Below are positions 1,910-10,818 of a stretch of 11,553 nucleotides of DNA, piece after piece. The notes under the pieces were generated by a model that worked only from the letters and a program-made list of their open reading frames with translations, was not told where the DNA came from and made no database searches. Every line of letters starts with the position of its first letter. Positions within the stretch are counted from its first letter, which is position 1. The position numbers and the translations under genes were made by a program. Origin of the DNA: Candidatus Cloacimonadota bacterium (GTDB taxonomy: Bacteria; Cloacimonadota; Cloacimonadia; Cloacimonadales; JAIOQZ01); the NCBI GenBank assembly GCA_021106755.1, contig JAIOTM010000024.1:1-11553 (forward strand). The letters run 5' to 3'.

Positions 1910-1912
1910 TTA
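1910..1912 (-). other. In-frame TAA interrupting the NRPS within condensation domain C3 (codon 1845)
   Basis: On the minus strand the frame reads WFEEEQGK, then TAA, then AVRFWRKYLAG. This aligns without a gap to the usual condensation-domain stretch W-x(11)-YW-KKQL-AG, so the stop replaces a single residue and nothing is shifted. At that place the family often has K, E or Q, each one base from TAA (AAA, GAA, CAA). It lies 50 codons after HHIIADG of the same domain. Confidence 0.9.
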
Positions 1913-4900
1913 TTTTCCTTGCTCTTCTTCAAACCACTTACGATACCAGATGGCAAAATCAATGTACTGCCTTTTGGGAACAGTCAGGTCAGGCTTCCGG
2001 TTTTCGGAAAGGCTGTCGTAAATACTGCCGAGTTGAAGCGATAAAATTCCTGCCGACCAGCCATCGGCTATTATATGATGCAGAATAAAGACAAACTTAA
2101 AACCTTCAGGCTCTAACTTTAAGAGTACTCCCTTACATAGCGGTCCCTCCTGCAAATTAAACCTGTTCCGTCGCAATCTGGTGGTTATTTGGTCAGACTC
2201 CGTTGCCCGAACAGCAAGCGGCTTCTCGGATAAATCTATAAAGGTGAAATCGACCGGAGTTTTGTCCAATATCTGTTGTCGGGGAACACCGTCTTCGTCT
2301 GTAAACACAGTTCGGAATGTTTCATGTTGCTCCAGAAGCAGAGTTAAAGCTTTTAAGAAACGCTCTACCACAACTGTGGCGTTGATTTCAAACTCCAGTG
2401 GTATATTATAGGCTACTCCGGTTTCGTCTTGCTTATCTATAAACCATAAACCTTCCTGAGTGAATGATAAGGGGTAGTTTTCCGCGTCCCGTGGGTAGCG
2501 GGGAATTACAGTCGATTCTTCCGATTCACCGAGTTTCTCCTGAATAAGTCTGGTTAGTAATGCTAAGGTAGGATTACGCATAAAATCGCGCATGGATAAT
2601 GATAATCCAAAAACTTTATCCACTCGTCCCATTAATTGCATAGCACGCAGGGAGTGACCGCCCATATCAAAGAAATCATCGTTACTGCCACTTCCCTCCT
2701 GATTAAGAGTTTGCGCCCATATCTTGGCAAGCTTGCGTTCTACTTCCGATTTGGGTTTTTCTTCTGTAGTTTGAGCTTTAACCTCTGACTGAGGTTTAGG
2801 GAGGGCTTGCCTGTTTATTTTGCCCTGCCGGTTATAAGGCATAAACTCCAGAGGAGTTATATAAGCCGGAACCATGTAATCCGGCAATTGAGAAGCAAGA
2901 AATTTCTTTAACTCCGCCTGTTCCAGCCCGGTTGGTGATGTATAGTAAAGTGCCAGACTCAATTCGCCCCTTATTTCCGGGGTAACGCAGAGAGCTTCGC
3001 CAACTCCCTGATTTGAGAGGGCGATTGAAGTAATCTCTTCCGGTTCGATACGATGCCCACGTATTTTTACTTGAAAATCACTACGCCCCACAAAGAGTAA
3101 GACCCCATCTTCCCGCCACTTTACAAGGTCACCAGTGTTGTAAAGTTTGCCTTTACCAAAGGGTGAGTCGATAAATTTTTCCGCAGTAAGTTCGGGACGG
3201 TTCAGATAGCCAACGCCAACTCCCTCGCCCCCGATGTACAGCGTACCAGTCACCTGCGGCGGAACAAGACGCAATTTCTCGTCCAGAACATACACTTTAG
3301 TGTTGGAAACAGGCTTGCCTATGGGAAGTTCATTCCCATCCAGCTCTGTGCCATAGTGGGCAGTAGCAATGATAGTTGTTTCGGTTGGTCCATAGGTATT
3401 TACAAGAGCTATTTTCCCTTTTGTTACCTTGTGCCAGCGAGTGAATCGCTCCGCTTTTTCACCACCGAGAATAATCAATCGCAACGTATCGGGCAATTGA
3501 ATATCATCTATCGCTGTAACAAGCTCGTGCCAGTAGGCTGTTGGCAGGTCTGCCAGAGTTATTGCGTTTGCTGTCAGGTTATTCACAAACTGCTGTATTG
3601 TTGGAACATCGAGATTTTCCGGGAATACAACGGTTCCACCGGATAGCCAGATTGGTAACATCTCTTCTAAGGAAAGATCAAAGGATAACGACCCAAACTG
3701 AAGGATACGTTCCTTCTCTGTCAGGTTAAATAGTTCTATAGCCGCAAGGTTGTGGTTTATTAAATTGCGATGAGTGAGAACCGCGCCCTTGGGCTTACCG
3801 GTTGAACCGGATGTATAAATTATATATGCTTTATCATCCGGGGAGGGTACAGTGGTTGACTTTGCTTTCGATTCCTTTTGCAAATCGCCAAAAAGAAGAT
3901 ACGGGATTGTACTATCATCGACTTCAACCTTGCTAACTATAACCCGCTCCACTTCAGCGTCTGAGATAATTGATAATTTTCGTTGTTCCGGCATAGCTTC
4001 GTCAAGGGGTAAATAGATACATCCAGCTTTCAATATCCCCGCCAGCGTAATAGTAAAATCGATTCCACGAGGTAAGCTCACTCCAATTACAGAGCCAGGT
4101 TTCGCCTTTTTCAGAATAGCCGAAGCAAACACATCTGATTTGTGGTCTAACTCACCATAAGTAAGCCGTTCTGCTCCCTGAATTACAGCCAGTTTCTCAG
4201 TCCGGGCAGTTGCTCTTTCCCGAAACAACTCAGCCCAGGATTTTTCAAGAGGATAATCCCGGTCGGTATCGTTCCACTCATCAAGAATAGTGGCACGAAG
4301 CGCGGGTGGAAGAACCTCAATTTCGTTTACGAGAGCTTCTGGATTGCTAATCATCTGCTCTAATACATAATCAAACGAAGTAGCCATGTTACGCACTAAC
4401 TCATCCGAGATAATATCGGTGTTATATTCGAACCAACATTCCAGTTCACCTTTAATTTCATCAATTGTCAGGTCGAGATCAAGCTTGGCGGTTCTGTTGC
4501 CTATCTCTTTCATACGTATCTGAACAGTGTCGCCGGATGTATCAGGGATAGGGAAGTTCTGGAAAACAAACATCACCTCGAACAGAGGATGCCGTGACGG
4601 ATCGTGTCTGTATCCCATAGATTTTATGAGGTTATCGAAAGGAGTCTGAGCCATACTGAAAGCAGTTAACGCCGACTCACTCTCCCCCGCAACGAGTGAA
4701 GATATGGTGTAGTCATTGTCAAAGCGGGTACGAAGTGCCACCAGATTAGTAAAAATGCCAATCGTGTGTTCCCAGCGGGAATCATCCCGCCCGGCATAGG
4801 GAGAACCAACCACAATATCGTCTGCTCCGGTGTAGTGTTTCATAACTATTTTAAGTGCAGTCTCTAACACCACATACATACTTGTATTGAGTGTTGCCGT

Positions 4901-5233
4901 AAACTTTTTCAGTTTGTTGGTAACTGACAATGGAATATGCCACCAGTAGCGTTCTCCTATGCTGGTCATTTCGCTACTACGCCGTTGTTTCAGTGGTAGG
5001 TCAACAGGTTCCGGGAATGGCAATAAACGCTGTTTCCAGTAATCCAGTTCAATTGGGTCAACACCCGCCTGTTCTTCTTTGCTTATTTTTGCCGCGTAGT
5101 CTGTGTAGTCCGCAGTAATCTCAGGTAATACAGCATCCAGTTTCTCAATTTTCGCGTTGTAAATTTCTCGCAAATCTCTCAAAAAGACACCCATAGACCA
5201 GCCATCAGTAATAATATGATGTATCACAAGGAA
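1913..5233 (-). pseudogene. NRPS second segment: rest of C2, A2, T2, first part of C3
   Basis: In frame with the segments on both sides and open from the TAG at 5234-5236 to the TAA at 1910-1912. Codons are numbered from the ATG at 7444. It opens with the C2 active site HHIITDG (742-748) and continues through the C-lobe. Domain A2 follows: LTYGEL, LKAGCIYLPLD, YTSGSTGKPKG (1210-1220), SFDLS, NTYGPTETTI, YNTGDL, and the A10 lysine K1542 in GKINR. T2 has MGGHSL with the phosphopantetheine serine S1598. C3 has SFTQEGLW and HHIIADG (1789-1795). The A2 pocket by eye is D-L-E-D-I-G-T-I-I-K; two acidic residues suggest a cationic side chain, but I recall no matching code. The only nearby start is a GTG at 5225-5227, two codons after the TAG (TTC CTT GTG), with no Shine-Dalgarno. 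It would begin the protein two residues before the catalytic HH, inside the C fold, so independent expression is doubtful. Confidence 0.85.
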
Positions 5234-5236
5234 CTA
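5234..5236 (-). other. In-frame TAG interrupting the NRPS within condensation domain C2 (codon 737)
   Basis: The minus-strand frame reads TAKKRYI, then TAG, then FLVIHHIITDGWS. The paralogous C3 domain of the same chain has EGFKFVFILHHIIADGWS, which aligns without a gap and puts Phe where the stop stands. The position lies in the hydrophobic strand leading into HHxxxDG, where Leu or Trp is also common; TTG or TGG to TAG would be one base change. The reading frame is identical on both sides. Confidence 0.9.
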
Positions 5237-7444
5237 GATATAGCGTTTTTTCGCGGTGCGTATAAGTATCGACCGAAACAGCTTCCCTTCTTCCAGATTG
5301 AACAGAGTTTCGCCGTAGGAATCGCGAATACGTTCTACCTCTCCGCTCTGGTCATCATCATTGGAAATATCTATGTAAGGAATATCGGGAGTAAAGGGTG
5401 GATCGAGAAAAAATACCGGTACGTTATCGTGTCTCGCAAAGCGCGTTCTTAAAGCGGAGTGCCGCTGCACTAACTCTGTAATCGCCATTTTGAATTTGTC
5501 TATCTGGATTTCACCATGAATATCGAATCGAAGAGGGATATTATAGTCTGTACGGGTTTTGTCCAATGTCCAGAAAAAATAGGGTCCGTGTTGGGATGGC
5601 GAAAGAGGAACACCATTGGGAAATTCCGCAGTTTTGATTTTCTCTTTTACTACAGCTTTTTTCAATTTCACTAATTTTGTAGCTACATCTTTGAGTACGG
5701 ATTGCTCAAACAAATCCAGAATCGTAAGCTTGTAGCCTTCATCCTCAGAGAGACGTGCTACTGCCCGTGCCGCTTTGAGAGAGTGTCCGCCGAGACGGAA
5801 AAAATCATCGTTTCTGCCGATTTTTTTAATATCAAGTATGTTGCTCCATACACGTGCTAAGGCTTCTTCTTTCGGTGTTTCCGGTGGAACAAACTCCTCA
5901 AGATGCTCAATCCAGTCAGGTTCCGGTAGCTTTTCTCTGTCAATTTTACCGTTATCGGTCAACGGCATATCTTTCATAAAGATAAACACGGAAGGAATCA
6001 TGTAATCCGGCAGTGTTTCTGCTAACCACTCTTCCAGTCCTTCCAGTTTCTTTTTCTTCTTATTTTTAAGCTCTATGTAAGCTACAAGCACTTTATCACC
6101 GTCTGGTCTGCGAACATCCATCATATAGTTTTGCAGAATGTCCGGGTGCGTTGATAAAATCGACTGAATTTCGCCGAGTTCTATTCTGTAACCTCGAATT
6201 TTTACCTGAAAATCTAATCTTCCGAGAAATTCTATCTCTCCGTCAGGAAAGAACCTGCCGAGATCACCTGTTTTGTATAAGCGGTCGCCGAGAATGTTTT
6301 CAAATGGGTTCTTGATGAATGCTTCTGCTGTTTTTTCAGGATTTCCGAAGTATCCCCGACCAACAAGTTTACCAGCAAGATATATTTCACCCGATTCTCC
6401 CTGTCGAACAGGTTCAAGGTTTTCGTTGAGTATTAAAACCTGTGTATTCGTTACTGGTTTGCCAATAGAGGGCATGCCGTGAGCTTTGTTTTCGAGTTCC
6501 ACGACTTTCTCTGTTACAATAATAGTTGCTTCGCTTGGACCATAAACATTGCAAAGAGTAGCCGGAAAATCCGGGTGTGGTCGTTTTACCAGTCTGTCGC
6601 CGCCGGAGCAAATAAATTCAAGTTGTGGGTTCTTGCGCCAATTAGAGTCTAAAAACAACTCTGCTACCGGTGTAGGCAGGAAGCCGAATACAATCTGGTG
6701 TTTCGCGAAAAAATCGTTTAAGGCTTCCATATCTATGAGACACGCATCCGGGGTAATAAACAGCGTCCCGGCAGTAGTCAGGTTTCCCCAGTACTCCCAT
6801 TGAGAAGCATCGAAGCTTAATTTTGCCGATTGCGATACATGACGCCCCGGAATCAGATTCCAGCGGCTACTGGTCCAGGCAATCAGGTTTACAAGGTTGC
6901 AATGTTCTATTGCCACTCCTTTTGGCACACCGGTAGAGCCGGATGTATAAATCAAATAGACAAGACTATTAGTTGAAACAGCGTAATTCGGATTGTCTTC
7001 CGAAAGTGTTTCGTCAGCCAGAATAGCGTCAAGCTTGGGGTAGCGTCCTTTTTTCATGAGTTTGTCGGCACCACCAACTGTGTCCAGAATAAATCCAAGT
7101 CCCGATTCCTTAACAATCATGCGAAGTCTTTTCGGTGGATATGTCGGATCGAGAGCCACATAGCAACATCCCGCCTTTACAATACCCATCATCCCGATAA
7201 CAAACGTAATTGAGCGGGTTGTATAAAGCCCGACTGGTGTTTCCAGTGCTAACGACTGTTTAAGAAGATAATGGGCAACTTTGTTTGCCTTCCGATTCAA
7301 CTCAGCATAGGTAATAGTTTGTCCATTACATTCCACGGCAATAATATCAGGATGCTTTTCGACAGTTTCTTCAAATAGCTGGTGTACAGTAGTATCTCGA
7401 ACTTCCGCCTGCGTGTTGTTGCAGGGATAGTCTGGAGCCTTCAT
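5234..7444 (-). CDS. NRPS first segment: initiation module A1-T1 plus N-terminal part of C2, ending at a premature TAG (736 aa)
   Basis: Non-ribosomal peptide synthetase, cytoplasmic, with no condensation domain before its first adenylation domain, so it should load the first amino acid. The ATG at 7442-7444 has GGGGA five bases upstream (7450-7454). A1 motifs: ITYAEL (44-49), VKAGCCYVALD (89-99), YTSGSTGVPKG (166-176), SFDAS (210-214), NVYGPSEAT (299-307), KTGDL (391-395), GRLDFQVKIRG (408-418), and K500 in NGKIDR. T1 has LGGHSL (551-556) with S555 for the phosphopantetheine arm. C2 begins near 612 (LSPSQHG) with RHSALRTRF (661-669) and is cut at codon 737 before its HHxxxDG. Pocket by eye: D212, A213, W216, F255, C279, G281, V300, I308, I309, K500. 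This partly resembles the leucine code DAWFLGNVVK; a hydrophobic substrate is possible, not firm. As it stands it could make only an A-T protein with a dead C stub. It is translationally coupled to the GNAT gene one base upstream. Confidence 0.9.
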   Translation of the reverse strand: MKAPDYPCNNTQAEVRDTTVHQLFEETVEKHPDIIAVECNGQTITYAELNRKANKVAHYLLKQSLALETPVGLYTTRSITFVIGMMGIVKAGCCYVALDPTYPPKRLRMIVKESGLGFILDTVGGADKLMKKGRYPKLDAILADETLSEDNPNYAVSTNSLVYLIYTSGSTGVPKGVAIEHCNLVNLIAWTSSRWNLIPGRHVSQSAKLSFDASQWEYWGNLTTAGTLFITPDACLIDMEALNDFFAKHQIVFGFLPTPVAELFLDSNWRKNPQLEFICSGGDRLVKRPHPDFPATLCNVYGPSEATIIVTEKVVELENKAHGMPSIGKPVTNTQVLILNENLEPVRQGESGEIYLAGKLVGRGYFGNPEKTAEAFIKNPFENILGDRLYKTGDLGRFFPDGEIEFLGRLDFQVKIRGYRIELGEIQSILSTHPDILQNYMMDVRRPDGDKVLVAYIELKNKKKKKLEGLEEWLAETLPDYMIPSVFIFMKDMPLTDNGKIDREKLPEPDWIEHLEEFVPPETPKEEALARVWSNILDIKKIGRNDDFFRLGGHSLKAARAVARLSEDEGYKLTILDLFEQSVLKDVATKLVKLKKAVVKEKIKTAEFPNGVPLSPSQHGPYFFWTLDKTRTDYNIPLRFDIHGEIQIDKFKMAITELVQRHSALRTRFARHDNVPVFFLDPPFTPDIPYIDISNDDDQSGEVERIRDSYGETLFNLEEGKLFRSILIRTAKKRYI

Positions 7445-7445
7445 A

Positions 7446-8006
7446 TTATTCCCCGATTTGAATTAATGAGTATATCTCTACATCGTTTGTTTGTTTGTTG
7501 TCCTCGTGGTAGCCGTACTGACGAAGTAACCCTTCGCGCTCGAATCCAAGTTTTTCCAACAGCTTCGCGGAAGCGATATTACCCGGTTGTACTAATGCCT
7601 GAATGCGGGTCAGCTCCAGCTCCGCAAAACAGTACTCAGTAACCCGTTGAAGCACTTCTGTCATAGCCCCTTTTCCCCACCAATCTTTGTGCAAATCGTA
7701 GCCCACTTCGCAGGTCTTGGGTGTTACAAATCCGGCAAGCATACACATACCAGCCATAACATTGCTTTCTTTATCGGCAATCACCCATCGCAGAGCTGTC
7801 TTCCGCAAGTATTGCTCGTTATAGTAACGAATTACAAGCCTAGCTGTTTCTTCTGAATCGGGACCATTCCAGTCCAGAAAACGTACTACATCGGGTTCGC
7901 TGTAAATTTCGTACATACGTCTCGCGTCACTTTCGACAGGACGTCTCAGCCTGAATCGATTGGTTTCTAACACTGGAAAACTTTCAAACGCTTTTTTCCA
8001 AGCCAT
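7446..8006 (-). CDS. GNAT-family N-acetyltransferase, RimJ/RimL type (186 aa), first gene of the NRPS operon
   Basis: Transfers an acetyl group from acetyl-CoA to an amine; the real acceptor is unknown. The protein shows the RimJ/RimL (Acetyltransf_3) layout. FPVLETNRFRLRRP stands near the N-terminus (10-23). The acetyl-CoA-binding motif A, EVGYDLHKDWWGKGAMTE (100-117), carries the pyrophosphate loop WWGKGA. The motif B region is VQPGNIASAKLLEKLGF (139-155), with N143 and S146 where relatives use NxxS. Length fits the family. ATG at 8004-8006 is preceded by TGGAGG (core GGAGG at 8011-8015, four-base spacer). The stop (7446-7448) lies one base from the NRPS ATG, so the two are surely co-transcribed and probably translationally coupled, the end of this gene serving as the NRPS ribosome site. 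That context suggests acetylation of the peptide, its free N-terminus or a building block, or self-protection, but RimL-like enzymes also modify ribosomal proteins; I cannot decide from sequence. Confidence 0.9.
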   Translation of the reverse strand: MAWKKAFESFPVLETNRFRLRRPVESDARRMYEIYSEPDVVRFLDWNGPDSEETARLVIRYYNEQYLRKTALRWVIADKESNVMAGMCMLAGFVTPKTCEVGYDLHKDWWGKGAMTEVLQRVTEYCFAELELTRIQALVQPGNIASAKLLEKLGFEREGLLRQYGYHEDNKQTNDVEIYSLIQIGE

Positions 8007-8241: not shown

Positions 8242-8400
8242 TGACACATAATTTTTAATTGACAGATTTGCTAACCTCTGGCTATTCGGGATGTAAAGAC
8301 ATGAGCTTGTCATATCTTTTTTTTAGACATGACACATAAGTTGCGATTAATAACAACAATTGGTGACGATTATAGGTTTTAATCCTTTTATAGTGTGTCA
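8242..8400. repeat. Three copies of TGACACA upstream of fic (candidate operator)
   Basis: TGACACA occurs at 8242-8248 and 8330-8336 on the plus strand and, inverted as TGTGTCA, at 8394-8400. The two direct copies extend to a ten-base match TGACACATAA (8242-8251, 8330-8339). A second short direct repeat, AGACATGA, lies at 8297-8304 and 8325-8332. The inverted copy ends 20 bases before the fic ribosome site. Binding by a repressor, perhaps the helix-turn-helix of the Fic protein itself, is only inferred. Confidence 0.35.
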
Positions 8401-8420
8401 TTAAATCCAAATTTTTACGC

Positions 8421-8425
8421 AGGAG
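8421..8425 (+). promoter_or_regulatory. Ribosome binding site that sets the fic start
   Basis: AGGAG is followed by TAATG and then ATG at 8431, a five-base spacer. The ATG at 8428 would leave only two bases, and the in-frame GTG at 8395 has no such site. The start at 8431 is therefore preferred. Confidence 0.7.
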
Positions 8426-8430
8426 TAATG

Positions 8431-9573
8431 ATGAGCAAATTTAAGCACCTTGATTTGAGGTTAGTTAGACCAGCTTTTGATTCAGAGATAATTGATTTGA
8501 TTATTGAATTGGATTATCTAAGAAAAAAGAAATTGTATGGCTCCACTCATCCGCAAATATTCTTTCAATTAAAGCAGATATTTCACATGTTAGAAAGTCT
8601 TGGTTCTGCAAGAATTGAAGGCAATCATACTACAATTGCGGACTATGTTGAGGAGATGATAGATAAAGAAGCAGATAAAAATGAATCAATGACAGAGATA
8701 ATCAACATGGAAAACGCTTTGGGATTTATTGACGAGCAGGATGATATAAGAATTGACAGGATTCAAATAAGCGATCTGCATAGAACTGTTGTAAAAAATC
8801 TGATTCGTGAAGGTAGTACTACGCCCGGCGATTATCGCAGGAAAAACGTTGTTATTTCAGGCTCAGAATTCAGCCCCCCTGATTACACAAAAGTTGCCGA
8901 TTATATGGAAGAATTGATTGGCTTCATCAACAGCGATACTTCTCCAAAATACGATTTGATTAAAACTGCTATTGCACACCACAGATTCACATGGATTCAT
9001 CCATTCGATAACGGTAATGGCAGAACTGTTCGATTATTTACGTATGCCATGCTTGTAAAATTTGGTTTCAATGTAAAAGAAGGCAGATTATTAAATCCTA
9101 CTGCTGTTTTTTGTTCTGATAGAAATAAGTATTACCAATATCTTACCATGGCAGATTCCGGTACAAATGATGGTATGTTAGCCTGGTGTAACTATGTACT
9201 GGCAGGTCTGAAATCCGAAATTGAGAAAATTGACAACCTTCTCGATTATAAATTTACAGAAAAGTTGATTCTAATTCCAGCTATCAGATTTTCTCAGCAA
9301 AGAGAACTAATTACAGACACCGAGAGAAAGATTTTAGAAGTTGGAATAAAGAAACAGGACTTTCAGAATTCGGATATTCAAGATGTAATAGAGTATCCTA
9401 CTTCAAGAAAAATATCTCGCGAGATAGCGAAATTGAGAGAAAAAGGATTTATCCAGACTGAGCGTAATTCCCAACGAAAATATGTCGTCAATTTCTCACA
9501 AAATTGTCTTTTGCGTGGGGTAATTGATTCGCTTCGGAAAAATGGATTTATTCCCGCATCACTGGATGAGTAA
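8431..9573 (+). CDS. Stand-alone Fic-domain protein, class II, with C-terminal winged helix (380 aa); predicted AMP-transferase
   Basis: Fic proteins usually transfer AMP from ATP onto hydroxyl side chains of target proteins. The signature is HPFDNGNGRTVR (190-201), with catalytic H190 and the GNGR anion-binding loop. The usual acidic Mg-binding residue (HxFx(D/E)GNGR) is Asn here, N194. An N-terminal inhibitory helix S59-A-R-I-E63-G-N matches (S/T)xxxE(G/N), placing it in class II, where the glutamate blocks ATP in the same chain. TTPGDYRRKNVVI (about 128-140) fits the target-binding flap. The C-terminus (about 305-370; SRKISREIAKLREKGFI) reads as a winged helix, as in Shewanella-type Fic proteins of similar length. 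No antitoxin gene adjoins it, in line with built-in inhibition. G+C is low in places: two 60-base lines gave 16 and 18 G+C, against 26-27 in lines from the NRPS and htrA, suggesting separate acquisition. Target unknown. Confidence 0.92.
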   Translation: MSKFKHLDLRLVRPAFDSEIIDLIIELDYLRKKKLYGSTHPQIFFQLKQIFHMLESLGSARIEGNHTTIADYVEEMIDKEADKNESMTEIINMENALGFIDEQDDIRIDRIQISDLHRTVVKNLIREGSTTPGDYRRKNVVISGSEFSPPDYTKVADYMEELIGFINSDTSPKYDLIKTAIAHHRFTWIHPFDNGNGRTVRLFTYAMLVKFGFNVKEGRLLNPTAVFCSDRNKYYQYLTMADSGTNDGMLAWCNYVLAGLKSEIEKIDNLLDYKFTEKLILIPAIRFSQQRELITDTERKILEVGIKKQDFQNSDIQDVIEYPTSRKISREIAKLREKGFIQTERNSQRKYVVNFSQNCLLRGVIDSLRKNGFIPASLDE

Positions 9574-9660: not shown

Positions 9661-10818
9661 ATGAGGCGTACCGGAGTCATTATCTCGGTGGTTCTTTTAC
9701 TGTTGATAAATATTGGTTTCAGTCTCTATTTGCACCACAAACATAACCAGGCAGCAAGGATTTTATCTCCTCTTCTGGAGAATCCATTCTGTGAACCCTC
9801 CTCTCAGGATAAACAGTCCGATTTGCAACAATTAGCTATTTCCCGTCATAACGCTATTACTTCGGCTGTAGAGAAAGTTGAACCAGCAGTAGTCAGCATT
9901 AACGTTATAAAAACGGAAATAGGACGCAGGATTGTGCCATTTTTTGGTTATGTAGAGCCATTCAGACGTAAGGTGCCGGGATTGGGTTCTGGTGTAATTT
10001 TCCGGGCGGATGGATATATTATCACTAATGCTCATGTAGTGAATAAAGCTACGGAAATAAAGGTAACTCTGATAGACGACCGCCATTTTGATGGAATTCT
10101 CGTTGGTATCGACACACGACACGACATTGCTATCATCAAGATTGAAACAGATGAAGATATACCCTTCGCCAAACTTGGAGACTCCGACCAGCTTATTATC
10201 GGCGAATGGTCAATCGCGGTGGGAAATCCATACAAATTTATGATAAAGGACAGTAATCCCAGCGTTTCGGTAGGAGTGATTTCCGCGGTTAACCGGAATT
10301 TCACGGAAACCAAAGATGGCAAATTCTATAAGGAGATGGTTCAGACAGACGCGGCTATTAATCCCGGTAACAGTGGAGGACCATTAGTAAATATTTACGG
10401 CGAAGTAATCGCGATTAACACCTTTATTTTCTCTGAAAGCGGAGGTAATATCGGCATCGGTTTCGCTACGCCAATAAACAGAGTAAAAAAGATAGCCGAC
10501 GAACTAATCTCCTATGGGAAAATCAGGGAACGGTGGTTTGGTTTTCAGGTTCAGGAACTTAATCCTATATATGCTTCATACTTAGAAGCTACAGATGTAG
10601 AAGGGGTTATCGTATCTCATGTGGATTCCGGTGGACCAGCCGAAAAAGCTGGCGTTAAGCTGGAAGATATTATCCTTAAAATCAACGATTCGGCAGTAAC
10701 TAATACGCGGGAAGCGGAGTTATCCGTCTCTGATATTGGCGTAGGCGAGCTTATCAAGCTTACTTTGTTGCGAAAGAAAAAGGAAATCACTGTAGTAATG
10801 ACACCAGAGGAACTATAG
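9661..10818 (+). CDS. Membrane-anchored HtrA/DegP-family serine protease with one PDZ domain (385 aa)
   Basis: Envelope quality-control protease acting outside the cytoplasmic membrane on misfolded proteins. Residues 5-24 (GVIISVVLLLLINIGF) form an uncleaved-looking signal anchor. The trypsin-like domain spans about 65-285 with a full triad: H125 in TNAHVV, D155 in RHDIAIIK, S238 in PGNSGGPL. GLGSGVIF before the histidine and GNIGIGFATP after the serine are typical. One PDZ domain follows (about 290-380; GVIVSHVDSGGPAEKAGVKLEDIIL), so the layout resembles DegS or HhoA rather than two-PDZ DegP. ATG has AGGAGG four bases upstream (9651-9656). The gene ends with TAG, showing that TAG is used as an ordinary stop here. 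The parvulin gene begins nine bases downstream, probably in the same transcript. Which HtrA paralogue it is cannot be settled, so no symbol is given. Confidence 0.95.
   Translation: MRRTGVIISVVLLLLINIGFSLYLHHKHNQAARILSPLLENPFCEPSSQDKQSDLQQLAISRHNAITSAVEKVEPAVVSINVIKTEIGRRIVPFFGYVEPFRRKVPGLGSGVIFRADGYIITNAHVVNKATEIKVTLIDDRHFDGILVGIDTRHDIAIIKIETDEDIPFAKLGDSDQLIIGEWSIAVGNPYKFMIKDSNPSVSVGVISAVNRNFTETKDGKFYKEMVQTDAAINPGNSGGPLVNIYGEVIAINTFIFSESGGNIGIGFATPINRVKKIADELISYGKIRERWFGFQVQELNPIYASYLEATDVEGVIVSHVDSGGPAEKAGVKLEDIILKINDSAVTNTREAELSVSDIGVGELIKLTLLRKKKEITVVMTPEEL

Follow-up and report, generated by a model that had tools for sequence, protein, structure and literature searches.

In ordinary bacterial nonsense pseudogenes, lone stop-creating substitutions are found in a frame that otherwise aligns with its homologs. 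The nonribosomal peptide synthetase (NRPS) gene analyzed here displays the same kind of lesion but, in comparison with these pseudogenes, has no indel yet and would therefore be very young if its stops are real. Among described NRPSs, the AusA aureusimine synthetase (NCBIfam NF047350) ranks first among the NCBIfam models for the two larger of the three pieces delimited by the stops and third for the remaining one, with 778, 504 and 308 bits for pieces that were scored apart, the cut-off of 2500 being that of the whole protein. Our search of the open-access literature for Cloacimonadota together with NRPS or nonribosomal peptide found no paper, which says little about all that is in print, and the older name Cloacimonetes combined with these terms returned two papers, with a single mention of each term. 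In the genomes of the same order, condensation-domain matches are sporadic (five of 106 genomes), and among the seven matches of these five genomes, only the two of the genome studied here contain a stop.

The window, i.e. the whole stretch of 11,553 nucleotides that was analyzed, is the entire contig C53 of a draft genome of a Candidatus Cloacimonadota bacterium (2.33 Mb in 459 contigs, 81.19% complete, 2.71% contamination). An earlier note on this DNA had described a single NRPS frame running from 7444 to 2 on the minus strand and broken by just two in-frame stop codons, one in each of two condensation domains, and our analysis bears out both statements. The frame comprises 2481 codons and exactly two stops, a TAG (5234-5236) and a TAA (1910-1912), whereas the other five frames across the same stretch contain 152, 155, 94, 101 and 142 stops. 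Its domain order is A-T-C-A-T-C-A, all on the minus strand: adenylation domain 1 (6347-7375, Pfam PF00501, AMP-binding, with its C-terminal subdomain, PF13193, at about 5945-6172), carrier domain 1 (5678-5863, PF00550), condensation domain 1 (4286-5611, Pfam Condensation, interrupted by the TAG), adenylation domain 2 (3203-4225, PF00501), carrier domain 2 (2543-2734, PF00550), condensation domain 2 (1154-2482, Pfam Condensation, interrupted by the TAA) and adenylation domain 3 (95-1087, PF00501). The C-terminal subdomain of adenylation domain 2 remains under the Pfam cut-off (21.8 bits compared to 24.5). The contig ends inside adenylation domain 3, upstream of any terminal release domain, so that the 3′ end of the gene is cut. 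Both carrier domains possess GGHS, the carrier serine motif, and both condensation domains possess the condensation motif HHxxxDG (HHIITDG in the first, HHIIADG in the second). Condensation, adenylation and carrier domains are thus repeated in one frame, as in a modular NRPS; however, under the standard code, the two in-frame stops prevent this frame from encoding a single translatable chain.

The position of the stops was examined in a query-anchored alignment, in which X stands at the stops and the rows are public homologs and relatives of the same order. Both premature stops stand where homologs have a residue: 553 of the 557 rows spanning the TAG and 546 of the 553 rows spanning the TAA, as in pseudogenes formed by point nonsense mutation. 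The earlier note had also stated that the alignments need no gap at these sites. Within 12 columns of the stop, 529/557 rows are without gap for the TAG and 441/553 for the TAA. The coding signal of the 60 codons on either side of each stop is positive in the NRPS frame, whereas the two other frames of the minus strand, the only strand scored, have a negative score and contain stops around these sites. The possibility that an undetected indel had led to a wrong frame was rejected because the frame is open and aligned on both sides of the stops.

The preservation of the gene was evaluated by counting, in each of the three pieces, violations of conserved columns, defined as columns conserved across 85% or more of the homolog rows. 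The counts are 15/129, 27/173 and 13/99, and the mean rates of the public homologs (0.060, 0.063 and 0.074, respectively) are lower; only 8%, 5% and 15% of the public homolog rows reach the rate of the window. Compared to public homologs as a whole, the NRPS of the window therefore looks divergent. The NRPSs of relatives belonging to the same order are a fairer yardstick. When the NRPS frames of three genomes of this order (G018, G012 and G002) were aligned with the pieces, all 20 alignments scored showed rates (0.136-0.381) higher than that of the corresponding piece of the window, and 12 of these 20 alignments stem from two uninterrupted genes, those of G018 and G012. Judging from these rates, the gene thus appears no more eroded than the uninterrupted genes of its relatives. 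Its GC3 is 0.421, compared to a median of 0.42 for 168 long frames from the contigs analyzed.

The NRPSs of G018 and G012 share with the window the order A-T-C-A-T, and the best alignments of its pieces 1 and 2 with them are 37-40% identical. Unlike the gene of the window, they have no internal stop, that of G012 running off its contig, and a thioesterase match follows their two modules, whereas the frame of the window goes on to a second condensation domain and a third adenylation domain. The earlier note had proposed a comparison with close relatives: the frames of G018 and G012 are uninterrupted, and a change of reading frame splits that of G002. This third NRPS also begins with an A-T-C module and is also broken, but by a reading-frame change inside its first adenylation domain, which is split across two overlapping open frames at about 8763-8766 of contig C133, and not by stops in condensation domains. 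It also carries a formyltransferase domain, a second A-T and a thioesterase. If the assembly is right, the G002 gene would be a real second broken copy; its break may instead be an assembly error. A gene of the phosphopantetheinyl transferase type is found on the same contig as the G002 NRPS (248-1039). An intact near-identical copy of the NRPS was searched for in a collection of 5.8 billion proteins and, with the limits on length and number of candidates given below, none was found, the only near-identical match listed being that of the contig itself; among the 120 matches listed per protein search, the best identity with a protein other than its own was 42%. In these searches, candidates of about 608-1934 and 1364-4342 amino acids were eligible, and the 7992 and 7990 that shared most words were scored. 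A contig-level genome scan, from which records near the genome of the window were possibly left out, returned two distant loci with 29-33% identity.

Directly upstream of the NRPS, one base before its start, the minus strand carries a GNAT acetyltransferase gene (7446-8006, identified by Pfam) whose ATG is preceded by a Shine-Dalgarno-like GGAGG; we infer that the two genes are co-transcribed. A GNAT gene whose product is 48% identical to this one is found in G018 (contig C26, 49-597); no 21-base word is shared between the 2097 bases around it and the NRPS contig of G018. The plus strand of the window carries a Fic-domain gene (8395-9573), an HtrA protease gene (9661-10818) and a gene encoding a PpiC-type isomerase. 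With a GC3 of 0.316, the Fic-domain gene has third positions richer in AT than those of its neighbours, and its product matches the PADLOC SoFic model (154 bits); both features suggest that it may have been acquired recently. In G017, an HtrA match (contig C63 of that genome, 611-1402) contains six stops (two TGA and four TAA) and corresponds to a decayed or mis-framed copy.

The earlier note had considered two independent substitutions without any indel in this gene to be an odd pattern, a judgement for which our results give little support. In the NRPS frame, 987 of the 22311 possible single substitutions (4.4%) yield a stop, and if between 0.03 and 0.2 frameshifting indels are assumed to occur per substitution, the chance that both lesions are nonsense goes from 0.36 to 0.03. 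The pattern is therefore at most mildly unusual. Furthermore, other genes of this assembly, unrelated to the NRPS, also carry lone stops. They were sought in 100 other contigs (C1-C52 and C54-C101, about 0.52 Mb, i.e. about 21% of the genome), ten of which were masked to N and one of which (C63) was covered to base 20000 of 21547. Candidates were stops flanked on either side, in the same frame, by 60 open codons and a coding signal. A non-negative score was obtained for 38 of them, of which 29 were tested by Pfam on the piece downstream of the stop; seven of these 29 had no match and are uninformative. Three single genes, each broken by one in-frame stop, were identified. A gene encoding a PyrK-like dihydroorotate dehydrogenase subunit (contig C65, minus strand) is interrupted by a TGA (1607-1609), its two pieces matching positions 9-133 and 170-257 of the 258 of the NCBIfam model. 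A YfbK-like von Willebrand gene (contig C62, minus strand) is interrupted near its C-terminus by a TAA (2134-2136), with Pfam matches to positions 1-114 and 120-182 of 184. Finally, an NAD-dependent epimerase gene (contig C7, plus strand) is interrupted by a TAA (5290-5292), with pieces matching positions 1-178 and 193-229 of 240, the second match being just under the Pfam cut-off.

In 31 genomes (its own and 30 relatives), only one of the 48 matches to the PyrK model has a stop, that of the genome studied here, which also contains a second, weaker and open match. Likewise, the only one of nine YfbK_C matches with a stop in these 31 genomes is its own, all eight matches of the relatives being open. 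The comparison of the genome with the proteins of G001 covered 81 gene regions (29263 codons) and gave 10 alignments containing stops. Six of these match a wrong strand or frame: five run antisense to a long open frame, and one lies in another frame of the same strand. In three others, the stops are confined to the vicinity of one end of the alignment, and the last one is the pyrK-like gene. The 81 regions showed no plain frameshift; three split alignments were dismissed, one (L026) being off-frame and stop-rich and two (L018 and L047) being antisense to long open frames. The same lone-stop scan applied to G001, whose GC content is 56.5%, yielded 517 candidates with a non-negative score and is thus unusable as a control. 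Taken as a background, these three lone stops, found over long frames that total 124050 codons, lead to an expectation of 0.06-0.24 in the NRPS. The probability of two stops in 7443 nt is then 0.0017-0.025 depending on the assumed detection efficiency, a post hoc calculation based on three events. This excess over the background points to this locus rather than to a uniform error rate.

Three options had been put forward in the earlier note, i.e. very recent inactivation, consensus errors, or expression of a chain in spite of the nonsense codons; the first two survive our analysis, and the third finds no support in it. Expression of the chain would involve read-through, recoding or a restart giving split subunits that reassemble, and the preserved domains and motifs on both sides of the stops, as well as a GTG (5227) three codons past the TAG, are in its favor. 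However, the genome encodes a release factor RF1 that matches above its cut-off, besides a second, weaker release-factor-like match, and among 230 long frames, 119 terminate with TAA, 57 with TAG and 54 with TGA, all three being used as ordinary stops. None of the 25 tRNA genes found has a stop anticodon, a search in which a suppressor tRNA could have gone unseen since the genome is 81% complete, and a genome search gave no PylS match. Read-through and recoding were rejected on these grounds. A restart at the GTG or at an ATG (1738) located 58 codons past the TAA was also rejected: by eye, no ribosome-binding site precedes either of them, in contrast to the GNAT gene, and both breaks cut within a condensation domain and not between domains. 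We therefore regard expression of the chain as very unlikely. A broader version, in which this lineage would tolerate lone TAG, TAA and TGA codons inside several conserved genes (two in the NRPS and one each in the pyrK-like, yfbK-like and epimerase genes) and read through them to make functional full-length chains, is hardly credible. That the frame is a misassembly artefact or that the contig comes from another organism could be suspected from the shortness of this contig and from the contamination of the draft, but is extremely improbable. Indeed, its codon usage matches that of the other contigs, and related NRPS genes are present in the same order. Moreover, the nearest homologs of its HtrA protein belong to Cloacimonadota: among the 120 matches listed, 14 of the 15 that name an organism are from this phylum (12 by name, and two genera by taxonomy), the last one being from Armatimonadetes. 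This protein is also matched in all 21 searched genomes of the group, its own included, although weakly in G018.

The main rival to recent inactivation is that either or both of the stops result from consensus errors or from alleles of a minority strain that became fixed in a fragmented metagenome assembly, the gene being whole and its peptide being made in most cells. The state of the draft (459 contigs, 81% complete, 2.7% contamination), the lone stops found in three other genes within about 21% of the genome and the lack of stops in the pyrK-like and yfbK-like families of the relatives searched are consistent with this explanation, as are the otherwise good preservation of the NRPS and the lack of plain frameshift in the 81 regions compared with G001. 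Nevertheless, none of the 31 ABC-transporter matches and none of the three tRNA-synthetase matches of the genome contains a stop, and two stops in one gene exceed what a uniform rate of errors would give. Three genes with a lone stop in about a fifth of a genome would also be expected of ordinary real pseudogenes, which counts against errors. We consider errors or a strain mixture possible but, on the whole, doubtful. A real and recent loss is favored over them because of the excess of stops at this locus, the sporadic distribution of the domain in the order and, provided that its assembly is right, the broken NRPS of G002.

The reading that we prefer, and hold to be likely without being firm, is that this NRPS gene is native to an uncultured Cloacimonadota bacterium and that two nonsense point mutations inactivated it very recently. 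The TAG, the first stop to be met, would end translation after the first adenylation and carrier domains and the first part of condensation domain 1. Neither an intact condensation domain nor a downstream module would then be produced, and no peptide would be assembled. Selection on the gene would have lapsed, and the TAA would have arisen before any frameshift. Its loss is probably tolerated, given its sporadic occurrence in the order. If the NRPS is a pseudogene, its preservation implies that it is a very young one. This broken synthetase, striking as it looks, fits the rest of the draft, in which lone stops also break unrelated genes, and it is ordinary in kind and probably a young pseudogene. 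If the stops are real, a rare synthetase has recently been lost by natural means in a phylum for which our search of the open-access literature found next to no work on genes of this kind, and a relative would have a broken copy too.
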